In this document: piece after piece, positions 46,241 through 52,868 of the stretch
Position numbering within the stretch: the stretch's first letter is position 1
Layout: each line of letters opens with the position of its first letter
Source: Pseudomonadota bacterium
GTDB taxonomy: Bacteria; Pseudomonadota; Gammaproteobacteria; Xanthomonadales; Rhodanobacteraceae
Reading direction: 5' to 3'
Length of the DNA stretch: 64,000 nucleotides
NCBI GenBank assembly: GCA_021794575.1
Contig: JAJYQO010000025.1
Location: forward strand, 1 to 64,000
Program-made: the position numbers and the translations under genes
Notes under the pieces: model-generated
What the model was told of the DNA's origin: nothing
The model's database searches: none
The model's input: the letters and a program-made list of their open reading frames with translations, nothing else

Positions 46241-46684
46241 CTACCAGAGCCCCGGCAGGAAGCGGCGCGTGCGCGCCTCGTAGTCGGCATACTCGGGCCA
46301 ACGCGCGCGCAGCAGGCGCTCCTCCAGCGCCGCCTTGCCGTTCAGCACGACCGCCAGCAGCAGCACGATCAACGCACGCCACACGCCCCCCGCGCACAGC
46401 GCCCAGCCCGCCGCACCCAGCAGCACGGTGAGATACATCGGATGCCGCACGTAGTGGTACGGACCGGCGGTGACCAACCGCGCCTGGGCGCGCGGCTGTG
46501 GCCGCACGTTGAAATTGCCGGGCCGGTTGTGCAGCAGCGTCCACACACCCAGCATTACCGCCAGCAGCAGCAGGACGACACCCGCCGGCCGCCACGCCCA
46601 GCGCCACGGTGGCGCCAGCAGTAGCGCGGCCAGCAGGCCGAACTGGGCGAACACATACAGCCAGGCCTGTACAGTGATGCGCAT
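46241..46684 (-). CDS. Isoprenylcysteine methyltransferase-family membrane protein
   Basis: 147 aa with about four helices. LVTAGPYHYVRHPMYLTVLLG is the RHPxY motif of the ICMT/PEMT fold, and the end reads ALEERLLRARWPEYADYEARTRRFLPGLW, also typical. These proteins are SAM-dependent methyltransferases of unknown bacterial substrate. It is the last minus-strand gene downstream of the sulfur cluster and converges on plsB. Confidence 0.85.
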   Translation of the reverse strand: MRITVQAWLYVFAQFGLLAALLLAPPWRWAWRPAGVVLLLLAVMLGVWTLLHNRPGNFNVRPQPRAQARLVTAGPYHYVRHPMYLTVLLGAAGWALCAGGVWRALIVLLLAVVLNGKAALEERLLRARWPEYADYEARTRRFLPGLW

Positions 46685-46711
46685 GTCCGAAGTTCCGCCG
46701 ACCGACGCAGC

Positions 46712-47218
46712 CTAACCGCTGCCCGCAGCCAACATTTGCCGCAGCAGCGGTGCGGCCAGGCCGCCCTCGACACGCGCCTGGATGCGGCCGTCGGCACCGA
46801 TCAGGATCTGCGTGGGCGTCACGCGCACACCGAAGGCCTGGGCGATGCGGCCATCGCGGTCCCACGCCAGCGGATAGGTGATGCCGGCGCGTGCCGCCAC
46901 TACGCGGATCGCATGTGGATCGCTGTAGCTCATGGCCACGCCGATCAGGGTGAATCGCGGGCCGGCGGCCCTGGCGAGGCGTTCGAACCGGGGCAGTTCC
47001 GCCACGCAGGGCACGCAATCCGGCGCCCAGAAGTCGATCAGCACGGCATGGCCGCGCTGCTGCGCGAGGCTGAGCCGACCGCCGCCAAGCAGCGGCATGA
47101 CCAGGGCAGGTGCGGGATGGCCCGGCCGCTGGCGCCAAGCTGGCGCCAGCGTGATCCACAGCGCCGCCCCGGCCGCGAGGGCCAGGGCAAGCGCGATCGA
47201 GGCTCCGCGCACACGCAT
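46712..47218 (-). CDS. TlpA-like periplasmic thioredoxin
   Basis: The start at ATG 47218 overlaps the DoxDA stop (TGATG), giving 168 aa. An N-terminal helix or signal (ASIALALALAAGAALW) precedes a redoxin fold with the active site FWAPDCVPCVAELP (Cys68, Cys71) and the cis-proline in GVRVTPTQILIG. CVPC rather than CPHC suggests a reductant for periplasmic disulfides or cytochrome c apoproteins. Coupling to doxDA suggests it services the sulfur oxidation proteins. Confidence 0.87.
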   Translation of the reverse strand: MRVRGASIALALALAAGAALWITLAPAWRQRPGHPAPALVMPLLGGGRLSLAQQRGHAVLIDFWAPDCVPCVAELPRFERLARAAGPRFTLIGVAMSYSDPHAIRVVAARAGITYPLAWDRDGRIAQAFGVRVTPTQILIGADGRIQARVEGGLAAPLLRQMLAAGSG

Positions 47219-48285
47219 CAGCGCGTCAGCGGCAGGCTCCACAGGTGTCCGTTCACCGACACCAGATGCAGCGTGTAGTGGCCGGGTGCCAGGTTCAGAC
47301 CAGGCTGCGTCGGCGCCAGTTCGACCATCGCCTGTGCGCCCACCGGACCGACCAAGCCGAACTTGCCGGCGTGGATCTTCTGGTAGACGAAGTCGTTCTT
47401 GAACGCCTGCTTGGGCGTATGCGCCAGCAGCATGCCGTCCCATTCCTCGACGATCTGCCCGCCGTCGCTGATCAGCGAAGCGCGCAGCACATTGGAGGGC
47501 TCGGCCGGCGTGCCGGCGTCGACGTAGGCGTGGAAGTGCACGGCGCCATCGGCCTTCAGCTCGCCCTGGCTCAGCGTCCAGTGGTGCTTGGACGGACTGG
47601 TGGGTCCGCCGTGGAAGGGTGTGACCACCGAGCCGCGGTAGTAGTTGTAGGTCAGCACGACGAAACCCACGGTGATCCAGAACAACACCAGCGCCAGCTT
47701 CTTGAACGCGGCTTCGGAAAGCGGCAGCGGTCCCGCGCCGCCGATCCAGTTGAACCACTTGCGCATCGCCAGTTTCGGGTTGCGCCGGGCCAGCCAGCTA
47801 TCCACCGAATAGGCGCCGCCGCCGGCCAGGAACAGTGTGATGCCTATGCCGAAGTTGGCTGCGGCCATGGTCCATTCGTCGATGCAGGTGGCGCCCTGCC
47901 AACCGAACAGCAGCATCAGCACGAAGCTGAGCCCGATGGTGGCCAGCGCCGCCAGTCGCGTGTACAGGCCGACGATCAGCATCAAACCGGCGATTGTCTC
48001 CACCGCGCTGAACACGATCACGCCCGCGTACAGCAGGGTGAAGTGCTGCAGCAGCCAGGCCACCAGGTGGTCGGTGCCGAGCAGCGCGCCGGGCATGGCA
48101 GTCTGGAACTTGTAGGCCATCCAGTGCGCCGACGGATCGATCTTGGACGGCGCGTAGATGAAGCGGCGTGTGCCGCCGCCCCAGTAAATCCAGCCCTGCA
48201 CGAAGCGGACCGCCAGCAGGGCGATAGCGGCCATGCGCCAGCCGCGCGCGGCGTCCGGGCTGGCCAGGGGTTGCGTGGTGCTCAT
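47218..48285 (-). CDS. doxDA: Thiosulfate:quinone oxidoreductase, DoxD-DoxA fusion
   Basis: 355 aa. Residues 1-180 form the DoxD part, four helices with IYWGGGTRRFIYAPSKIDP and VIVFSAVETIAGLMLIVGLYTRL. After a linker helix (FWITVGFVVLTYNYYRG) the DoxA part follows (TSPSKHHWTLSQGEL, HAYVDAGTPAEPSNVLRASL, FGLVGPVGAQAMVEL). In Acidianus the two are separate subunits; fused forms occur in acidophilic sulfur oxidisers. The enzyme oxidises thiosulfate to tetrathionate and reduces quinone. It lies 98 nt after tsdA and overlaps the TlpA-like gene. Confidence 0.88.
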   Translation of the reverse strand: MSTTQPLASPDAARGWRMAAIALLAVRFVQGWIYWGGGTRRFIYAPSKIDPSAHWMAYKFQTAMPGALLGTDHLVAWLLQHFTLLYAGVIVFSAVETIAGLMLIVGLYTRLAALATIGLSFVLMLLFGWQGATCIDEWTMAAANFGIGITLFLAGGGAYSVDSWLARRNPKLAMRKWFNWIGGAGPLPLSEAAFKKLALVLFWITVGFVVLTYNYYRGSVVTPFHGGPTSPSKHHWTLSQGELKADGAVHFHAYVDAGTPAEPSNVLRASLISDGGQIVEEWDGMLLAHTPKQAFKNDFVYQKIHAGKFGLVGPVGAQAMVELAPTQPGLNLAPGHYTLHLVSVNGHLWSLPLTR

Positions 48286-48383
48286 GGTGTGGCTCCTCGG
48301 GTGCGGATAAACAAGTTGCTGCAGTCAGCGCGTGGCGCGCGTGGACGCGCGATCGCCACCACTCCTGATCGCGCGGCGCGGCA

Positions 48384-49388
48384 TCAGTCGCGCAGCGTCG
48401 TCGTGGTGCGTCCGCGCGCTGCCTGCGTCACGGTACTGCCGCCGGACACGCCCGAGCCAACGCCAAGCAGATGTCCATTGACGGTGCGGCCGTAGGTTTC
48501 ATAAGGTCCGTCGTGAAATTGTCGGCGCGTGGCCTCGATCGAGCCCAGGTAGCGCGGATCCTGCGGGCGCTCGTGGCTGTCGATGTAATAGGCCACGTCC
48601 CATGCCTGCTGGTCGCTGAGGCTATTGCCGTTGCCCAACGGCATGTTGGCCTTGATGAAGCCGGCGGCCAGGTCCAGCCGCGACATGCCCGCGCCCCAGT
48701 TGTATGACTGCGGCCCCCACAGCGGCGGAAACCAGGGTTTGCCCTCGACCAGCAGGCCCTGGCCATCGGCGCCGTGGCATAGCGCGCAATGCTCGGTGTA
48801 CAGCGCCTGGCCGCGCGCGTAGTCCCAACCCTGCGCGGGCTTGGGCAGCCTGGGATAGCCGGCACCGCGCAACACCGCATGCGTGGGCGCGCCGCTGGCC
48901 ATCCAGTACGAATACGCCTCCAGCGCCACCAGCGCGGGCGAGCCCGACGGCGGCGCCTTGCCGTTCATGCTGAAGCGGAAGCAGTCCTGCAGGCGCTCCT
49001 CGAAGGTGTTGACGTGCCGGTTCTTGCTGCGGTACGCGGGGTAGCTGACCCACGCCGCCCACATCGGCGCGCTGTCGGCCAAGCGGCCGGCGTCGAGATG
49101 GCAGTTCCGGCAGCTCAGGGTGTTGCCCGTGTATTGCGGCGCGTGTGCCGGCGTGTTGCGGAACAGCGCCTCGCCCTGGCGCACCACGACGCCGAAGGCA
49201 TCGTCGGGAATGGCGCTCGACGGCGGCGGCGCGAATGCCACCGCAACGGGCCGGGCCGGCTGCGCGGCGCTGGCCGCCGCCAGCGGCGCCGCGCTGCCTT
49301 GCGGGGCCTGCTCGCAGGCCGACAGCACACCGCAAGTGGCGATGGCGATCAGGGTATGGGCGGAGCGGAATGCGCTGCGCGCGCTCAT
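48384..49388 (-). CDS. tsdA: Thiosulfate dehydrogenase (diheme cytochrome)
   Basis: 334 aa with a lipobox (GVLSAC, Cys25), so membrane-tethered in the periplasm. Heme 1 is bound at SCRNCHLDAG (Cys93-Cys96-His97). The distal cysteine ligand that marks TsdA is in RLQDCFRFSMNGK (Cys136). Heme 2 is at CALCHGADGQG (Cys201-Cys204-His205). TsdA joins two thiosulfates into tetrathionate. The start overlaps the stop of the diheme cytochrome gene upstream (ATGA), matching the tsdBA order known elsewhere. Confidence 0.88.
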   Translation of the reverse strand: MSARSAFRSAHTLIAIATCGVLSACEQAPQGSAAPLAAASAAQPARPVAVAFAPPPSSAIPDDAFGVVVRQGEALFRNTPAHAPQYTGNTLSCRNCHLDAGRLADSAPMWAAWVSYPAYRSKNRHVNTFEERLQDCFRFSMNGKAPPSGSPALVALEAYSYWMASGAPTHAVLRGAGYPRLPKPAQGWDYARGQALYTEHCALCHGADGQGLLVEGKPWFPPLWGPQSYNWGAGMSRLDLAAGFIKANMPLGNGNSLSDQQAWDVAYYIDSHERPQDPRYLGSIEATRRQFHDGPYETYGRTVNGHLLGVGSGVSGGSTVTQAARGRTTTTLRD

Positions 49389-50116
49389 GGCCTGGCCTCC
49401 GTCGCAACGGTTGCCGCCAGCGTGGGCTGCGCTGCGAAGTACTGGCTGACGGCCACGATCTCGGCCTCACTGAGGCGCTTGCCGATGGCCCCCATCAGGC
49501 CGTCGAGGCCGGCCGGGCGCTGGCCGTTCTTCCAGGCGCGCAACTGCCGTTCCAAGTACACCGCCGGCTGGCCGGCGATGGGCGGGAACGCGGCGCTCAG
49601 CGCACCGCCCAAGCCCCGCCCGCCAGGGCCATGGCAGGTGACGCAGGCGGGAATCGCATCGCGACCGCGCAGAGCCAGCGCCTCACCCAGCGCCGGTGGC
49701 GGTGTCACCGGCGACATGATCGGCGGCGGCACCTGACGCGAAAAATACGTGGCCAGCGCTGCGATCTGGGCATCGTCGAGCTTATGCGCGATGGCTTGCA
49801 TGCTGGGGTTGTTACGCGCCAGCGCATCGAAGTGCTTGAGTTGGCGTTCGAGATAAGGCTTGGGCAAGCCGGCCAGGTGCGGAAAGGCGGCCTTGATCTT
49901 GCCCTGCCCCTCCTCGCCGTGGCAGATGGCGCACTCGTGCGCGCCCTGCGGACTGCCGTGCAGCACGATCTGCTGCGCCAGCGCCATTTGTGCCGCCAAC
50001 GCGGCACTGCTGGACGCAGCCGGCCGCACGCTCGCGTCAGCCGCGGGCGGCGGCGCATCTGCATGCGCCACGGCGCCCGACAGCAGCACCGCCGTCAGTA
50101 CCCCATGCCGGCGCAT
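49385..50116 (-). CDS. tsdB: Diheme c4-type cytochrome, probable TsdB electron acceptor
   Basis: I choose the ATG at 50116 (MRRHGVLTAVLLSG), 243 aa with a signal peptide ending AVAHA. Two c-type heme sites are spaced as in cytochrome c4: ECAICHGEEGQG (Cys62-Cys65-His66) and ACVTCHGPGGRG (Cys158-Cys161-His162), each followed by a FPHLAG/FPPIAG and PYLERQL / VYLERQL block. Translational coupling to tsdA makes it the likely acceptor that passes electrons to terminal oxidases. The TsdB name rests on context plus the diheme pattern. Confidence 0.8.
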   Translation of the reverse strand: MRRHGVLTAVLLSGAVAHADAPPPAADASVRPAASSSAALAAQMALAQQIVLHGSPQGAHECAICHGEEGQGKIKAAFPHLAGLPKPYLERQLKHFDALARNNPSMQAIAHKLDDAQIAALATYFSRQVPPPIMSPVTPPPALGEALALRGRDAIPACVTCHGPGGRGLGGALSAAFPPIAGQPAVYLERQLRAWKNGQRPAGLDGLMGAIGKRLSEAEIVAVSQYFAAQPTLAATVATEARP

Positions 50117-50144
50117 GCGATGAATCCTTGTACAAACCCCTTCA

Positions 50145-50918
50145 TCACGGCTTCCCGGACCCGCTCTGCCAACCCCAATGCTCGAAGATGGCGCGCCCCC
50201 GTGCACCTTTGAGAAACGCCACGAACGCCCGCGCCGCAGCACTGGCTTCACCACGCGTGGTCAAACCCACACCGCAGTCGCGATACAGGCGGTAATGCGG
50301 CTCCAGCGGCACCACCTGCGCCACACCCGGATGCGCCACCGCCCAGATGTTGAAGATCAGCCAAGCCTGGATGGAAGGGTCTTCCTGCCAGCGCTGCAAC
50401 GCCAGTGCGCTGTTGGGCGCGGCGTATACGATATTGCGGCGGAAGGCGCGCACGCTGGCGATGTCGCCGTCGCGGCCGGCGATGTCCTCCCACAGCCCGA
50501 CCTGCCCGGCGCCATCGACCACCATCACTTTGACGCCCGGCTCGAGCAGACCGCGGAAGCCGGTGATGTGCCCGGGGTTGCCGGGGCGCACCAGGATCAC
50601 CGCCGGGCGCAGGTACAGCGGCTCGATGGTGGCGGGATCGAGCACGCCGGCCAGGTCGCGCTGGAAGTCGGCCATCATCGCCTCGGAGCCGGAATAGATC
50701 ACATCACCGGTGGCGCGCGCCGCATCCAGCCATTGCGGCGTGGGACCGGCCGTAACTTCGACGGTGACGCCGGGATGGCTGCGCTCGAAGGCGGTCGCGG
50801 CCGCCTTCATAGCGGGCGCCGGACCGCCGGGACCGAACACGCGCACCAGCGTGGCGGCCATGCTACTGCCGCTGAGCAGGATCAGACTCAGCAGCAGCAG
50901 TGACCGCCACGGGCACAT
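50145..50918 (-). CDS. AcfC/ModA-like periplasmic solute-binding protein
   Basis: 257 aa with a signal peptide (LSLILLSGSSMA). The type-2 periplasmic-binding fold shows RVFGPGGPAPAMKAAATAFE, GDVIYSGSEAMMADF and VRPGNPGHITGF, resembling AcfC and molybdate/sulfate-binding proteins. No ABC permease or ATPase gene lies nearby. It ends 28 nt before the tsdB start and begins 4 nt after the other binding-protein gene. It may bind a sulfur oxyanion for the adjacent enzymes; this is inference. Confidence 0.8.
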   Translation of the reverse strand: MCPWRSLLLLSLILLSGSSMAATLVRVFGPGGPAPAMKAAATAFERSHPGVTVEVTAGPTPQWLDAARATGDVIYSGSEAMMADFQRDLAGVLDPATIEPLYLRPAVILVRPGNPGHITGFRGLLEPGVKVMVVDGAGQVGLWEDIAGRDGDIASVRAFRRNIVYAAPNSALALQRWQEDPSIQAWLIFNIWAVAHPGVAQVVPLEPHYRLYRDCGVGLTTRGEASAAARAFVAFLKGARGRAIFEHWGWQSGSGKP

Positions 50919-50922
50919 GCGT

Positions 50923-51939
50923 TTACTCCTTGGTGGCGTCAGCCGGCGCCGCCTTGAAGCCGTAACGCTCGAAGATCTTCAGCGCCGTCGGCGAACGCAG
51001 GAATTCGATCCAGAGTTTGCCCGCCGCAGGATGCGGCGCATCCTTCACCAGCGCCGCGGCATACACCGCCGTGGTGTTGTACTTGGCGGGGATGTCCACG
51101 TGACTGATCGGATGCCCGGCCTGCTCCTGGAAGATGGCTTCGGACTTCCAGGTGATGCCGGCATCGCCCAGACCCTGCATCAGGAACAGCGGCGTCTGCC
51201 GATGATGGATGTGGGTGAGAATGGTCTGGCCGTTCTTCACCTTGGTGTCGTAGACCATCGTCTCCAGCGCCGGGCCACCGGCCTTGCGCAGGCTGGCCTC
51301 GATCTGCCGCGCCACGCCCTCCCAGGCCGGGTTGGGCATCACCAGGCGCACGCCGGGCCTGCCCAGATCCTGCAGACTGGTGATGTGCCCCGGGTTGCCC
51401 TTGGGCACCATGATGGTGAGATCGTTGGTGACATACGGCACTGCCGGCGCCAGCAGCTTGCCGGCCGCGATCTGCTCGTCGACCTTCTTCAGTCCGGCAG
51501 CGTACACATCCGGCGGCACGGTGAAGGTCATGTTGCCGGAGGTGAAGGTATTGCCCATCGCCATGGCCTTAATCAGCAGGCCCGGTGGGATGGTCACGTA
51601 GAAGATCTTGCCGCGCAGCTCCGGGTGCTCGGCCTCGAAGGCCCGCACCAGCGGTGCCATGGCGAAGTAGTAGTTGCCGCCGACGTAGATCACCAACCGC
51701 GGATCGTTGACGCTGCCGTGGAAATCGGGCATCGAATCGACTTCGGGGATGGTGAACTCCAGGCCTTTCTGCAACGCCGGATTGTTCGCGCCGTGCGACC
51801 ACGGCGGATACAGGGTTTCGCTGTACTTGGGCGCCGACACCGGCTTGCCGGTGCCGGCCTGCGCGGCGCCGAGGCCGAGCACGCCCAGCACGCACATCAC
51901 CGCCGCAAGCATGGATTTGCGATGCAGGCTCATAGACAT
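50923..51939 (-). CDS. Second orphan ModA-like solute-binding protein
   Basis: 338 aa with a signal peptide ending GAAQA and a GAGGAA ribosome site. Fold markers are RLVIYVGGNYYFAMAPLVRAFE, MGNTFTSGNMTFTVPP, VPKGNPGHITSLQDL and RSPTALKIFERYGF. The shared GNPGHIT motif shows kinship with the neighbouring binding protein, but an N-terminal extension of about 70 residues is unique to it. Oxyanion binding is plausible; the ligand is unknown. It lies 79 nt after the dsrE-like gene. Confidence 0.8.
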   Translation of the reverse strand: MSMSLHRKSMLAAVMCVLGVLGLGAAQAGTGKPVSAPKYSETLYPPWSHGANNPALQKGLEFTIPEVDSMPDFHGSVNDPRLVIYVGGNYYFAMAPLVRAFEAEHPELRGKIFYVTIPPGLLIKAMAMGNTFTSGNMTFTVPPDVYAAGLKKVDEQIAAGKLLAPAVPYVTNDLTIMVPKGNPGHITSLQDLGRPGVRLVMPNPAWEGVARQIEASLRKAGGPALETMVYDTKVKNGQTILTHIHHRQTPLFLMQGLGDAGITWKSEAIFQEQAGHPISHVDIPAKYNTTAVYAAALVKDAPHPAAGKLWIEFLRSPTALKIFERYGFKAAPADATKE

Positions 51940-52018
51940 TCCTCGTCAGACCTCGAACAAACAGGTACGAACCGTCCGCGCCGCCGCGCCAATCTGGCCG
52001 GCGGCGCGAACGAGGGCA

Positions 52019-52573
52019 TTACATGCGCATCAGCGCGTAGCCCTGGTTCTGCTGGATGATCAGCGTGGACAGCGCCGACAGCGCCACCTTGATGTCGGGG
52101 TTCACCTCGGCGGGGGTGAACTGCATGTCGCCCAACGCGTTGCCGCACACCATCACGTCGACGCCGGCCTTGCGGAGATCGGCGATCACCGCAAGGTTGG
52201 GGTTGGCGTGGCCGTACTTGGCCATGTAGGCCTTCTCACCCAGCGCGATCGGCGTGGCGCCGCCGTGGATGATTACATCGAACTTCAGGTGGCTGAGCGG
52301 CACGCCGGCGGCGGCGAAGGTGTTGACCGCGCGCGCGATGTGATCGAGGCCCGGGTTGACCTTGTCGGCCGCCGGGTTGCCCTGGGTCACGTCGAACAGC
52401 GCCTTGTAGACCTTCTTCGGACTGGGCCGGTCGATGGCCTCGGGCCAGACGTGCACCGGACCGTAGGCCTGGATCGCCGGCTTGATCCAGAAGCCTTCGG
52501 GCTGCGCGGCAAAAGCCGACACGGACAGCGCCATCGCGGCGGCAACGGCGATCAGGCGGGTATACGGTTTCAT
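52019..52573 (-). CDS. Exported DsrE-family protein
   Basis: The ATG at 52573 (MKPYTRLIAVAAAMALSVSA) gives 184 aa with a cleavable signal (SAFA). The DsrE/F-like fold shows LKFDVIIHGGATPIAL, then ADLRKAGVDVMVCGNALGDM with one conserved cysteine (Cys143), and ALSTLIIQQNQGYALMRM at the end. Cytoplasmic DsrE relatives carry sulfur on such a cysteine. A periplasmic version next to thiosulfate enzymes suggests sulfur or sulfane handling outside the cytoplasm. It is the first gene of the run. Confidence 0.88.
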   Translation of the reverse strand: MKPYTRLIAVAAAMALSVSAFAAQPEGFWIKPAIQAYGPVHVWPEAIDRPSPKKVYKALFDVTQGNPAADKVNPGLDHIARAVNTFAAAGVPLSHLKFDVIIHGGATPIALGEKAYMAKYGHANPNLAVIADLRKAGVDVMVCGNALGDMQFTPAEVNPDIKVALSALSTLIIQQNQGYALMRM

Positions 52574-52868
52574 GGCAGGCTCCTCGGGATTCGATGGACG
52601 GAGTGGAACGGATAGCCCCCGAACCCTACGCCGCAACTACGAGGCGCAATAGTTAAAATTGCAGATGCCGAATATAAGCGGCACTTATCAGTCGAGTGCC
52701 GTACATTGCGCCGCAACATATCGTCACGATGATGCGCGCGCGGGCCACGGCGCAGGCGCGCACGGCAGCGGAAATCGACGCGCGGCGCTAGGTTCCATGC
52801 GCGGCACAAGCGGGCCGCCGATCCGTGCCACATGGATGCGCGACGCCCCGGGCGTCGCGCGCACCTGC
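52574..52868. promoter_or_regulatory. Promoter region of the sulfur cluster, with a small palindrome
   Basis: This 295-nt gap lies between the dsrE-like gene and the 3' end of the PII gene. It contains an AT-rich island (GTTAAAATTG and AATATAAG) unlike the surroundings, the likely promoter. ATAAG-CGGCA-CTTAT (52674-52688) is a perfect inverted repeat and may be an operator. No gene is visible in the rest. Confidence 0.45.

Follow-up and report, generated by a model that had tools for sequence, protein, structure and literature searches.

A cassette of seven genes in a Rhodanobacteraceae genome (Pseudomonadota bacterium, GenBank assembly GCA_021794575.1, contig JAJYQO010000025.1, positions 1 to 64,000, the 64,000-nucleotide stretch hereafter called the window) places two enzymes of thiosulfate oxidation, TsdBA and DoxDA, beside an exported DsrE-family protein and two binding proteins, SBP1 and SBP2, which raises the question of whether these proteins form one system. 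The genes lie on the minus strand at 46712-52573 in the order DsrE (exported)-SBP1-SBP2-TsdB-TsdA-DoxDA-TlpA, as assigned from open reading frames (ORFs) and profiles. We suggest that the locus is probably a mobile-type periplasmic module converting thiosulfate to tetrathionate, in which two output enzymes are arranged around SBP1 and a one-cysteine exported DsrE. Gene content, conservation, the exchange of the gene in the first slot, the lack of any binding-protein-dependent (BPD)-type permease other than those for sugar and phosphate and a unique operator-like box were observed directly. A preliminary description, made from the letters of the window, had recognized the same-strand run of DsrE, two binding proteins, a diheme cytochrome, TsdA, a DoxD-DoxA fusion and a TlpA-like protein, which was confirmed by profiles, and had given the same cassette ends, namely the ATG of dsrE at 52573 and the stop codon of tlpA at 46712.

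The preliminary description knew of no described cluster with this full composition. This did not hold as worded, since a similar Acidithiobacillus cluster, tsd-sbp-doxDA-rhd/resA of A. ferrooxidans, has been published (PMC2754497, PMC6335251). This thiosulfate cluster is induced on sulfur, where its level exceeds that on iron (PMC2754497). The gene in its upstream slot, AFE_0042, is the thiosulfate dehydrogenase (TSD) identified by Kikumoto et al., as cited in PMC6335251, and the purified Acidithiobacillus TSD acts enzymatically on thiosulfate (PMC6335251). From AFE_0042 to AFE_0050, the cluster contains an SBP1 orthologue, a DoxDA fusion and ResA/TlpA in the order of the window (PMC6335251). 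We found no family or mechanism stated for Acidithiobacillus TSD. This enzyme reportedly reduces neither ubiquinone nor cytochrome c. In A. ferruginosus (L058; loci compared here carry the prefix L), two cassette copies face each other, and one of them reads TSD-SBP-DoxDA-TlpA, with TlpA of the window occupying the same place as its ResA. The upstream-slot gene of A. ferruginosus passes the NCBIfam model NF052225 'thiosulfate dehydrogenase' with 416 bits against a cut-off of 300. Where Acidithiobacillus has TSD, an exported DsrE stands in the window, and SBP2-TsdB-TsdA is inserted before DoxDA. A TSD of the NF052225 type was not found in the genome of the window, and the rhodanese (P21 type) that is part of the Acidithiobacillus cluster was not among the genes of 46241-52573. 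Judged by its gene content, the cassette is a variant of the Acidithiobacillus cluster, and what is new is the combination of TsdBA with an exported DsrE, which we did not find in print.

An SBP1-alignment scan of 84,980 named genomes gave at least 79 loci as best matches, and those listed belong to Acidithiobacillus, Thiomonas, Acidocella, Acetobacter, Komagataeibacter, Sulfuriferula, metagenome-assembled genomes of the Rhodanobacter/Mizugakiibacter type and others. About 85 SBP1 genes with more than 50% identity, a sample of the best matches, were examined as the cassette set. Directly upstream of SBP1 we found DsrE in 32/85 and TSD in 43/85 cases, and both in none (0/85); seven of the other ten genes have a different or no upstream gene and three lie at contig ends. 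Downstream of SBP1 come DoxDA, TsdBA or both, apart from 11 TSD-SBP loci, mostly of Thiomonas, that carry neither output gene within 4.5 kb. The order DsrE-SBP1-SBP2-TsdB-TsdA-DoxDA was also observed in four other genome assemblies (L037, L038, L042 and L044), followed by TlpA in L037 and L038, and L039 and L040 show the same order minus SBP2, with TlpA. When the cassette genes except tlpA were compared with those of L037 and L038, the ratio of nonsynonymous to synonymous polymorphism (pN/pS) was about 0.2-0.3. The recurrence of the order across assemblies and the purifying selection on the genes indicate that the neighbourhood is more than chance.

In a converse survey of 369 Gammaproteobacteria, whose genomes are related to each other and for which only counts are given, SBP1 orthologues (at least 57% identity) were present in 5/369 genomes including that of the window, with DoxDA beside them in 5/5; in the window itself DoxDA sits behind the inserted genes, not directly beside SBP1. 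DsrE with at least 65% identity occurred in 4/369 genomes and was beside SBP1 in 4/4, and DoxDA was found in 11/369, five of which have SBP1. TsdA was present in 42/369 genomes, and among 30 TsdA loci inspected that of the window alone has these neighbours. Because of these counts, SBP1, DsrE or TSD, and DoxDA are the linked core, and TsdBA is an optional addition. The preliminary description had proposed a survey of such neighbourhoods, and its outcome was divided: the random co-occurrence that would have refuted its proposal was not found for SBP1 and DsrE, and TsdA alone is not predictive (1/30). Likewise, of the one dual-outlet periplasmic system that it had proposed, what was retained is a module for thiosulfate from which electrons may leave by two routes (the TsdBA cytochromes and the quinone reductase DoxDA) and to which SBP1 and DsrE are tied, while the roles of DsrE and the binding proteins are still ones that we infer.

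On the SBP1 tree, which is a quick tree with several open branches, we count two switches of upstream partner and 10 of output enzyme (DoxDA only or TsdA-containing), so that the stable part of the cassette appears to be SBP1 together with its DsrE-superfamily partner. Gluconobacter, Acetobacter and Kozakia share TSD-SBP-DoxDA DNA that is 98.8-100% identical and lies on plasmids that are conjugative or mobilizable; this cassette of acetic acid bacteria is represented by L207 (Gluconobacter oxydans 621H plasmid) and L085-L089. TSD-SBP is combined with TsdBA on plasmids from Bradyrhizobium and Methylobacterium, and on a Paraburkholderia fungorum plasmid (L206) DsrE-SBP lies beside TsdBA. The L206 region also holds a cbb3-type oxidase subunit, YeeE/YedE transporters and a TusA-like protein. 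That the genes merely accumulated side by side, by chance or history, without acting jointly would fit the presence of SBP2 and TsdBA in only part of the near clade and the lower identity of doxDA (62-63%) than of SBP1 (85-86%) in L042 and L044, but we regard it as highly improbable in view of an order kept in many genomes under purifying selection, the fact that SBP1 has joined up anew with one or the other output enzyme several times, and the carriage of the three-gene unit on conjugative plasmids.

The protein in the first slot of the window, P0001, matches Pfam DsrE PF02635 at 44 bits over cut-off. Its AlphaFold2 (AF2) model has a pLDDT of 87 and matched 2PD2, 1L1S and DsrEFH in Foldseek, and a single Cys143 and His103 are each invariant in 32/32 orthologues. 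The Pfam score, the modelled fold and the conserved cysteine together place P0001 in the DsrE superfamily. A relative with known chemistry is DsrE3A of Metallosphaera cuprina, which forms a Cys-S-thiosulfonate by taking thiosulfate from tetrathionate (PMC4175335). The two have in common the DsrE family, a reactive cysteine and a setting of thiosulfate/tetrathionate chemistry (PMC4175335), whereas DsrE3A is cytoplasmic with two cysteines and a TusA partner, and the DsrE of the window starts with a signal peptide and conserves a single cysteine.

Profile comparisons suggest that the two occupants of the slot are related. No Pfam family matched TSD above its cut-off, and hhalign of TSD against the slot DsrE under default settings gave 9% probability. 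The hhalign score was 29.3, with the invariant cysteines aligned, compared with a maximum of 24.9 in 200 column shuffles, 12.5 and 14.4 for reversed profiles and at most 18.5 for unrelated families. The matching cysteine is invariant in 43/43 TSD sequences and aligns with DsrE C143. A third set consists of exported DsrE-like proteins encoded beside SBP1-DoxDA of A. ferrianus, A. ferriphilus and A. ferrivorans and beside distant SBPs, one member of which (L198) passes Pfam DsrE. A profile of 13 of these sequences, with neither slot family included, was run on 10,036 six-frame ORFs and matched, at E <=1, its 13 own frames, 53 slot-DsrE frames, 37/48 TSD frames and nothing else; the best E value for TSD was 4e-5, again with the invariant cysteine aligned. 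This ORF set is enriched in the loci in question, equally so in the other cassette genes, none of which matched. Based on these comparisons, TSD is likely homologous to DsrE, that is, a divergent DsrE.

The two output enzymes were readily assigned. TsdA of the window aligns with Marichromatium TsdBA 5LO9 (1e-94) and Allochromatium TsdA 4V2K/4WQx (1e-58), and TsdB aligns with the N-terminal half of 5LO9 (2.5e-28). The Cys heme ligand that the preliminary description had seen was found again in the alignment to 4V2K/4WQx: TsdA has two CxxCH hemes (C93 and C201) and the heme-1 ligand C136, in 16/16 relatives. Met249 is the heme-2 Met, and Asn248 lies at the position of Allochromatium vinosum Lys208; C136, N248 and M249 are kept in 16/16 relatives. 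The lipobox LSAC of TsdA, also present in L037 and L038 and replaced by LAGC in L039 and L044, suggests that TsdA is probably a lipoprotein. The mechanism of TsdA runs via a Cys-S-thiosulfonate on the heme ligand (PMC4423706). As in Marichromatium purpuratum TsdBA (5LO9) and A. vinosum TsdA, heme 1 is Cys-ligated and a diheme TsdB lies directly upstream, whereas in the window TsdB and TsdA are separate proteins, TsdA is a probable lipoprotein with Asn for Lys208, and tsdBA is embedded with DoxDA and DsrE. DoxD (98.5 bits) and DoxA (47.9 bits) domains occur in one chain, both above the Pfam cut-offs. Against the NCBIfam equivalog NF041179 the chain scored 82 bits and did not reach the cut-off of 300, a model that is possibly drawn narrowly; this shortfall would weaken only the named-equivalog claim for DoxDA.

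The TsdA reaction is reversible, and the module could instead mainly reduce tetrathionate, or buffer thiosulfate and tetrathionate, at low oxygen. The same Asn-Met pair with Met as heme-2 ligand is found in Campylobacter jejuni TsdA, a tetrathionate reductase (PMC5146829). But the shared partner DoxDA is an oxidative enzyme, terminal oxidase genes come after tsdBA on the Paraburkholderia and Methylobacterium plasmids (L206, L208), and the genome has an sHdr-type locus and a protein of the sulfide:quinone reductase (SQR) type. We therefore consider a mainly reductive role quite unlikely.

The best solved relatives of SBP1 are the sulfate-binding proteins SubI and 1SBP, and a Trp aligned with that of sulfate-binding proteins is kept in 85/85 sequences. 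SBP1 shares 65-71% identity with the Acidithiobacillus SBPs, which take the same place directly downstream of the first gene. SBP2 matches the AcfC structure 4JB7 (5e-42) and is limited to near relatives of the window, being present in L037, L038, L042 and L044 and as a remnant in L041. It shares its fold family with AcfC/PEB3, whose solved members are by name a colonisation factor and a surface antigen, whereas SBP2 lies inside a thiosulfate cassette. The 99.95%-complete genome contains four PF00528 permease domains, named by eye from translations and neighbours: a MalFG-like pair for sugar, accompanied by a binding protein of its own, and PstC/PstA. No CysTW- or ModB-type partner for SBP1 or SBP2 was present among these PF00528 domains; YeeE/SoxT and SulP were not searched. 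SBP1 and SBP2 are thus orphan binding proteins without a cognate BPD-type ABC permease in the genome, as the preliminary description had called them, the BPD-type permeases being those for sugar and phosphate only. Distant SBP1 relatives with 30-39% identity in other Gammaproteobacteria (L198, L199, L200, L203 and L036) often lie no more than a few kb from a DsrE-superfamily gene, which is directly adjacent in L198, L199 and L036.

Orphan SBPs can serve as sensors, and the exported DsrE and the binding proteins might accordingly be sensors or chaperones for periplasmic thiosulfate or tetrathionate, with TsdBA and DoxDA alone oxidizing. Such a role would agree with putative anti-sigma proteins, encoded beside extracytoplasmic function (ECF) sigma genes (L200, L203), in which a DsrE-like domain appears to form the periplasmic part. 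We nevertheless find it unlikely, as the TSD that takes the same slot in Acidithiobacillus was purified as a thiosulfate-active enzyme (PMC6335251) and no sensor kinase or sigma factor adjoins the cassette of the window.

For a joint thiosulfate-oxidizing module, the chemistry and all of the partner contacts that follow are what we infer. TsdA would oxidize thiosulfate at its Cys-ligated heme and pass electrons via TsdB to c-type cytochromes, and DoxDA would carry out the same reaction at the membrane with reduction of quinone. The exported DsrE fills the slot held by the cofactor-free TSD in Acidithiobacillus, Thiomonas and Acidocella and would share its chemistry, in which a cysteine takes the thiosulfate group as Cys-S-thiosulfonate. 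Exchange with a second thiosulfate would give tetrathionate, or exchange with tetrathionate its mobilisation, and the electrons would be coupled to DoxDA or TsdA. The ligand of SBP1 and SBP2 may be thiosulfate, tetrathionate or a loaded partner, which they would deliver rather than import, DsrE or TSD may ferry thiosulfate between the binding proteins and DoxDA/TsdA, and the TlpA-like thioredoxin may keep the DsrE cysteine reduced. In its strongest form, the idea makes the exported DsrE a thiosulfate dehydrogenase in its own right, which needs no cofactor, is a homologue of TSD and can take its place or be replaced by it, and which works in a Cys-S-thiosulfonate relay with DoxDA/TsdA, with the SBPs delivering and independently of Sox; this form we put forward only tentatively, at less than even probability.

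Here, we need to consider several points that weigh against this proposal. DsrE3A reacts with tetrathionate and not with thiosulfate (PMC4175335), so that an oxidant would be required to load DsrE with thiosulfate. In the aligned loop where sulfate-binding proteins have Ser, SBP1 carries an invariant Glu, and its ligand therefore need not be an oxoanion. Foldseek with the AF2 model of TSD, which is modest (pLDDT 72), gave no match with E <1, a test of TSD against DsrE restricted to the middle region scored no higher than its shuffles, and greedy alignment brought no further support. Finally, gaps of 79 nucleotides (nt) after dsrE and 98 nt after tsdA allow separate transcripts.

Features of the cassette and its surroundings in the window
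Feature	Position	Strand	Evidence or remark
Exported DsrE-family protein (P0001)	52019..52573	-	Pfam PF02635, Sec signal peptide
SBP1 (P0002), exported SBP_bac_11 protein, cassette core	50923..51939	-	Pfam 178 bits
SBP2 (P0003), exported AcfC/PEB3-type binding protein	50145..50918	-	Pfam 156 bits
TsdB-like diheme cytochrome c (P0004)	49385..50116	-	5LO9 N-terminal half
TsdA thiosulfate dehydrogenase (P0005), probable lipoprotein	48384..49388	-	5LO9, 4V2K/4WQx; SoxA-TsdA and cytochrome c profiles
DoxD-DoxA fusion, thiosulfate:quinone oxidoreductase (P0006)	47218..48285	-	Pfam DoxD and DoxA
TlpA/ResA-like membrane-anchored thioredoxin, CVPC motif (P0007)	46712..47218	-	Pfam AhpC-TSA, NCBIfam ResA similarity
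ICMT/PEMT-like membrane methyltransferase, possible last gene of unit	46241..46684	-	Pfam PEMT/ICMT
ATAAG-N5-CTTAT palindrome (LysR-type T-N11-A box)	52674..52688	-	about 100 nt upstream of dsrE

The junctions between the genes differ from the several 4-nt overlaps of the preliminary description: the only such overlap is that of tsdB and tsdA (ATGA), SBP1 and SBP2 are separated by 4 nt, and doxDA and tlpA overlap by 1 nt (TGATG). The remaining gap within the cassette, after SBP2, is about 28 nt. The ICMT-like gene starts about 28 nt past tlpA and may belong to the transcription unit; a relative adjoins the cassette on the Bradyrhizobium plasmid (L205) and another is present in L039. The flanks, both recognized by eye, are a PII/GlnK-like gene upstream and a convergent PlsB-like gene at the far side.

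The palindrome upstream of dsrE is the sole copy in the 2.49 Mb genome and recurs at -104 to -118 with 0-1 mismatches in L038-L044 and L084. Divergent LysR genes adjoin several related cassettes, and the box fits a LysR-type operator as judged from its sequence; a LysR gene for it was not identified among the genes of the genome, where the best candidate has 34% identity. Scans of the locus for sigma-70 promoters and terminators gave no more than shuffles. Elsewhere in the genome, contig C7 (L186) carries a DsrE3A-like gene beside HdrC/HdrB/HdrA-like genes, an sHdr-type locus, and contig C70 (L185) carries an ArsR-rhodanese fusion, a cytoplasmic DsrE, the SQR-type protein and a cytochrome with two CxxCH motifs. 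Since the genome has these sHdr-type and SQR-type loci and SoxB was not found in it, thiosulfate probably enters via this cassette. In another gammaproteobacterium (L137:1-2520), a beta-propeller protein of the pyrroloquinoline quinone (PQQ) type, which could be tetrathionate hydrolase-like, is encoded directly upstream of DoxDA; used as a tetrathionate-hydrolase probe of the genome of the window, it gave weak matches only, on contig C21, probably to BamB.

Exported DsrE genes were also seen in other surroundings. Acidithiobacillus ferrianus (L066:3850-12113) has porin, exported DsrE, DUF302, SoxY, DUF302, SoxB, SBP1 and DoxDA consecutively, and A. ferriphilus (L072) has porin and exported DsrE ahead of SBP1-DoxDA. 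The ECF sigma genes and putative anti-sigma protein genes adjoin at L200:9671-10923 and L203:10095-11386, near exported DsrE genes and a distant SBP. The C-terminal part of these anti-sigma proteins matches the exported-DsrE profile (122 and 70 bits) and has no Pfam match, and such a protein could be a membrane-spanning sensor of sulfur that carries a DsrE domain. Extra 'DsrE' ORFs upstream in L048 and L051 were rejected as the antisense of a cysteine desulfurase gene.

The oxidation of thiosulfate to tetrathionate is relevant to acid mine drainage and bioleaching. Through the slot exchange and the profile match, TSD would be assigned to the DsrE family, and the invariant cysteine could be proposed as its catalytic residue, along with probable partners. 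Of all members of this sulfur module, which has been widely transferred and occurs even on conjugative plasmids in acetic acid bacteria, an orphan binding protein appears to be the one kept most consistently. If the exported DsrE and TSD are indeed interchangeable, the mechanism of TSD would be DsrE cysteine chemistry, and a protein-bound periplasmic relay would exist beside Sox.

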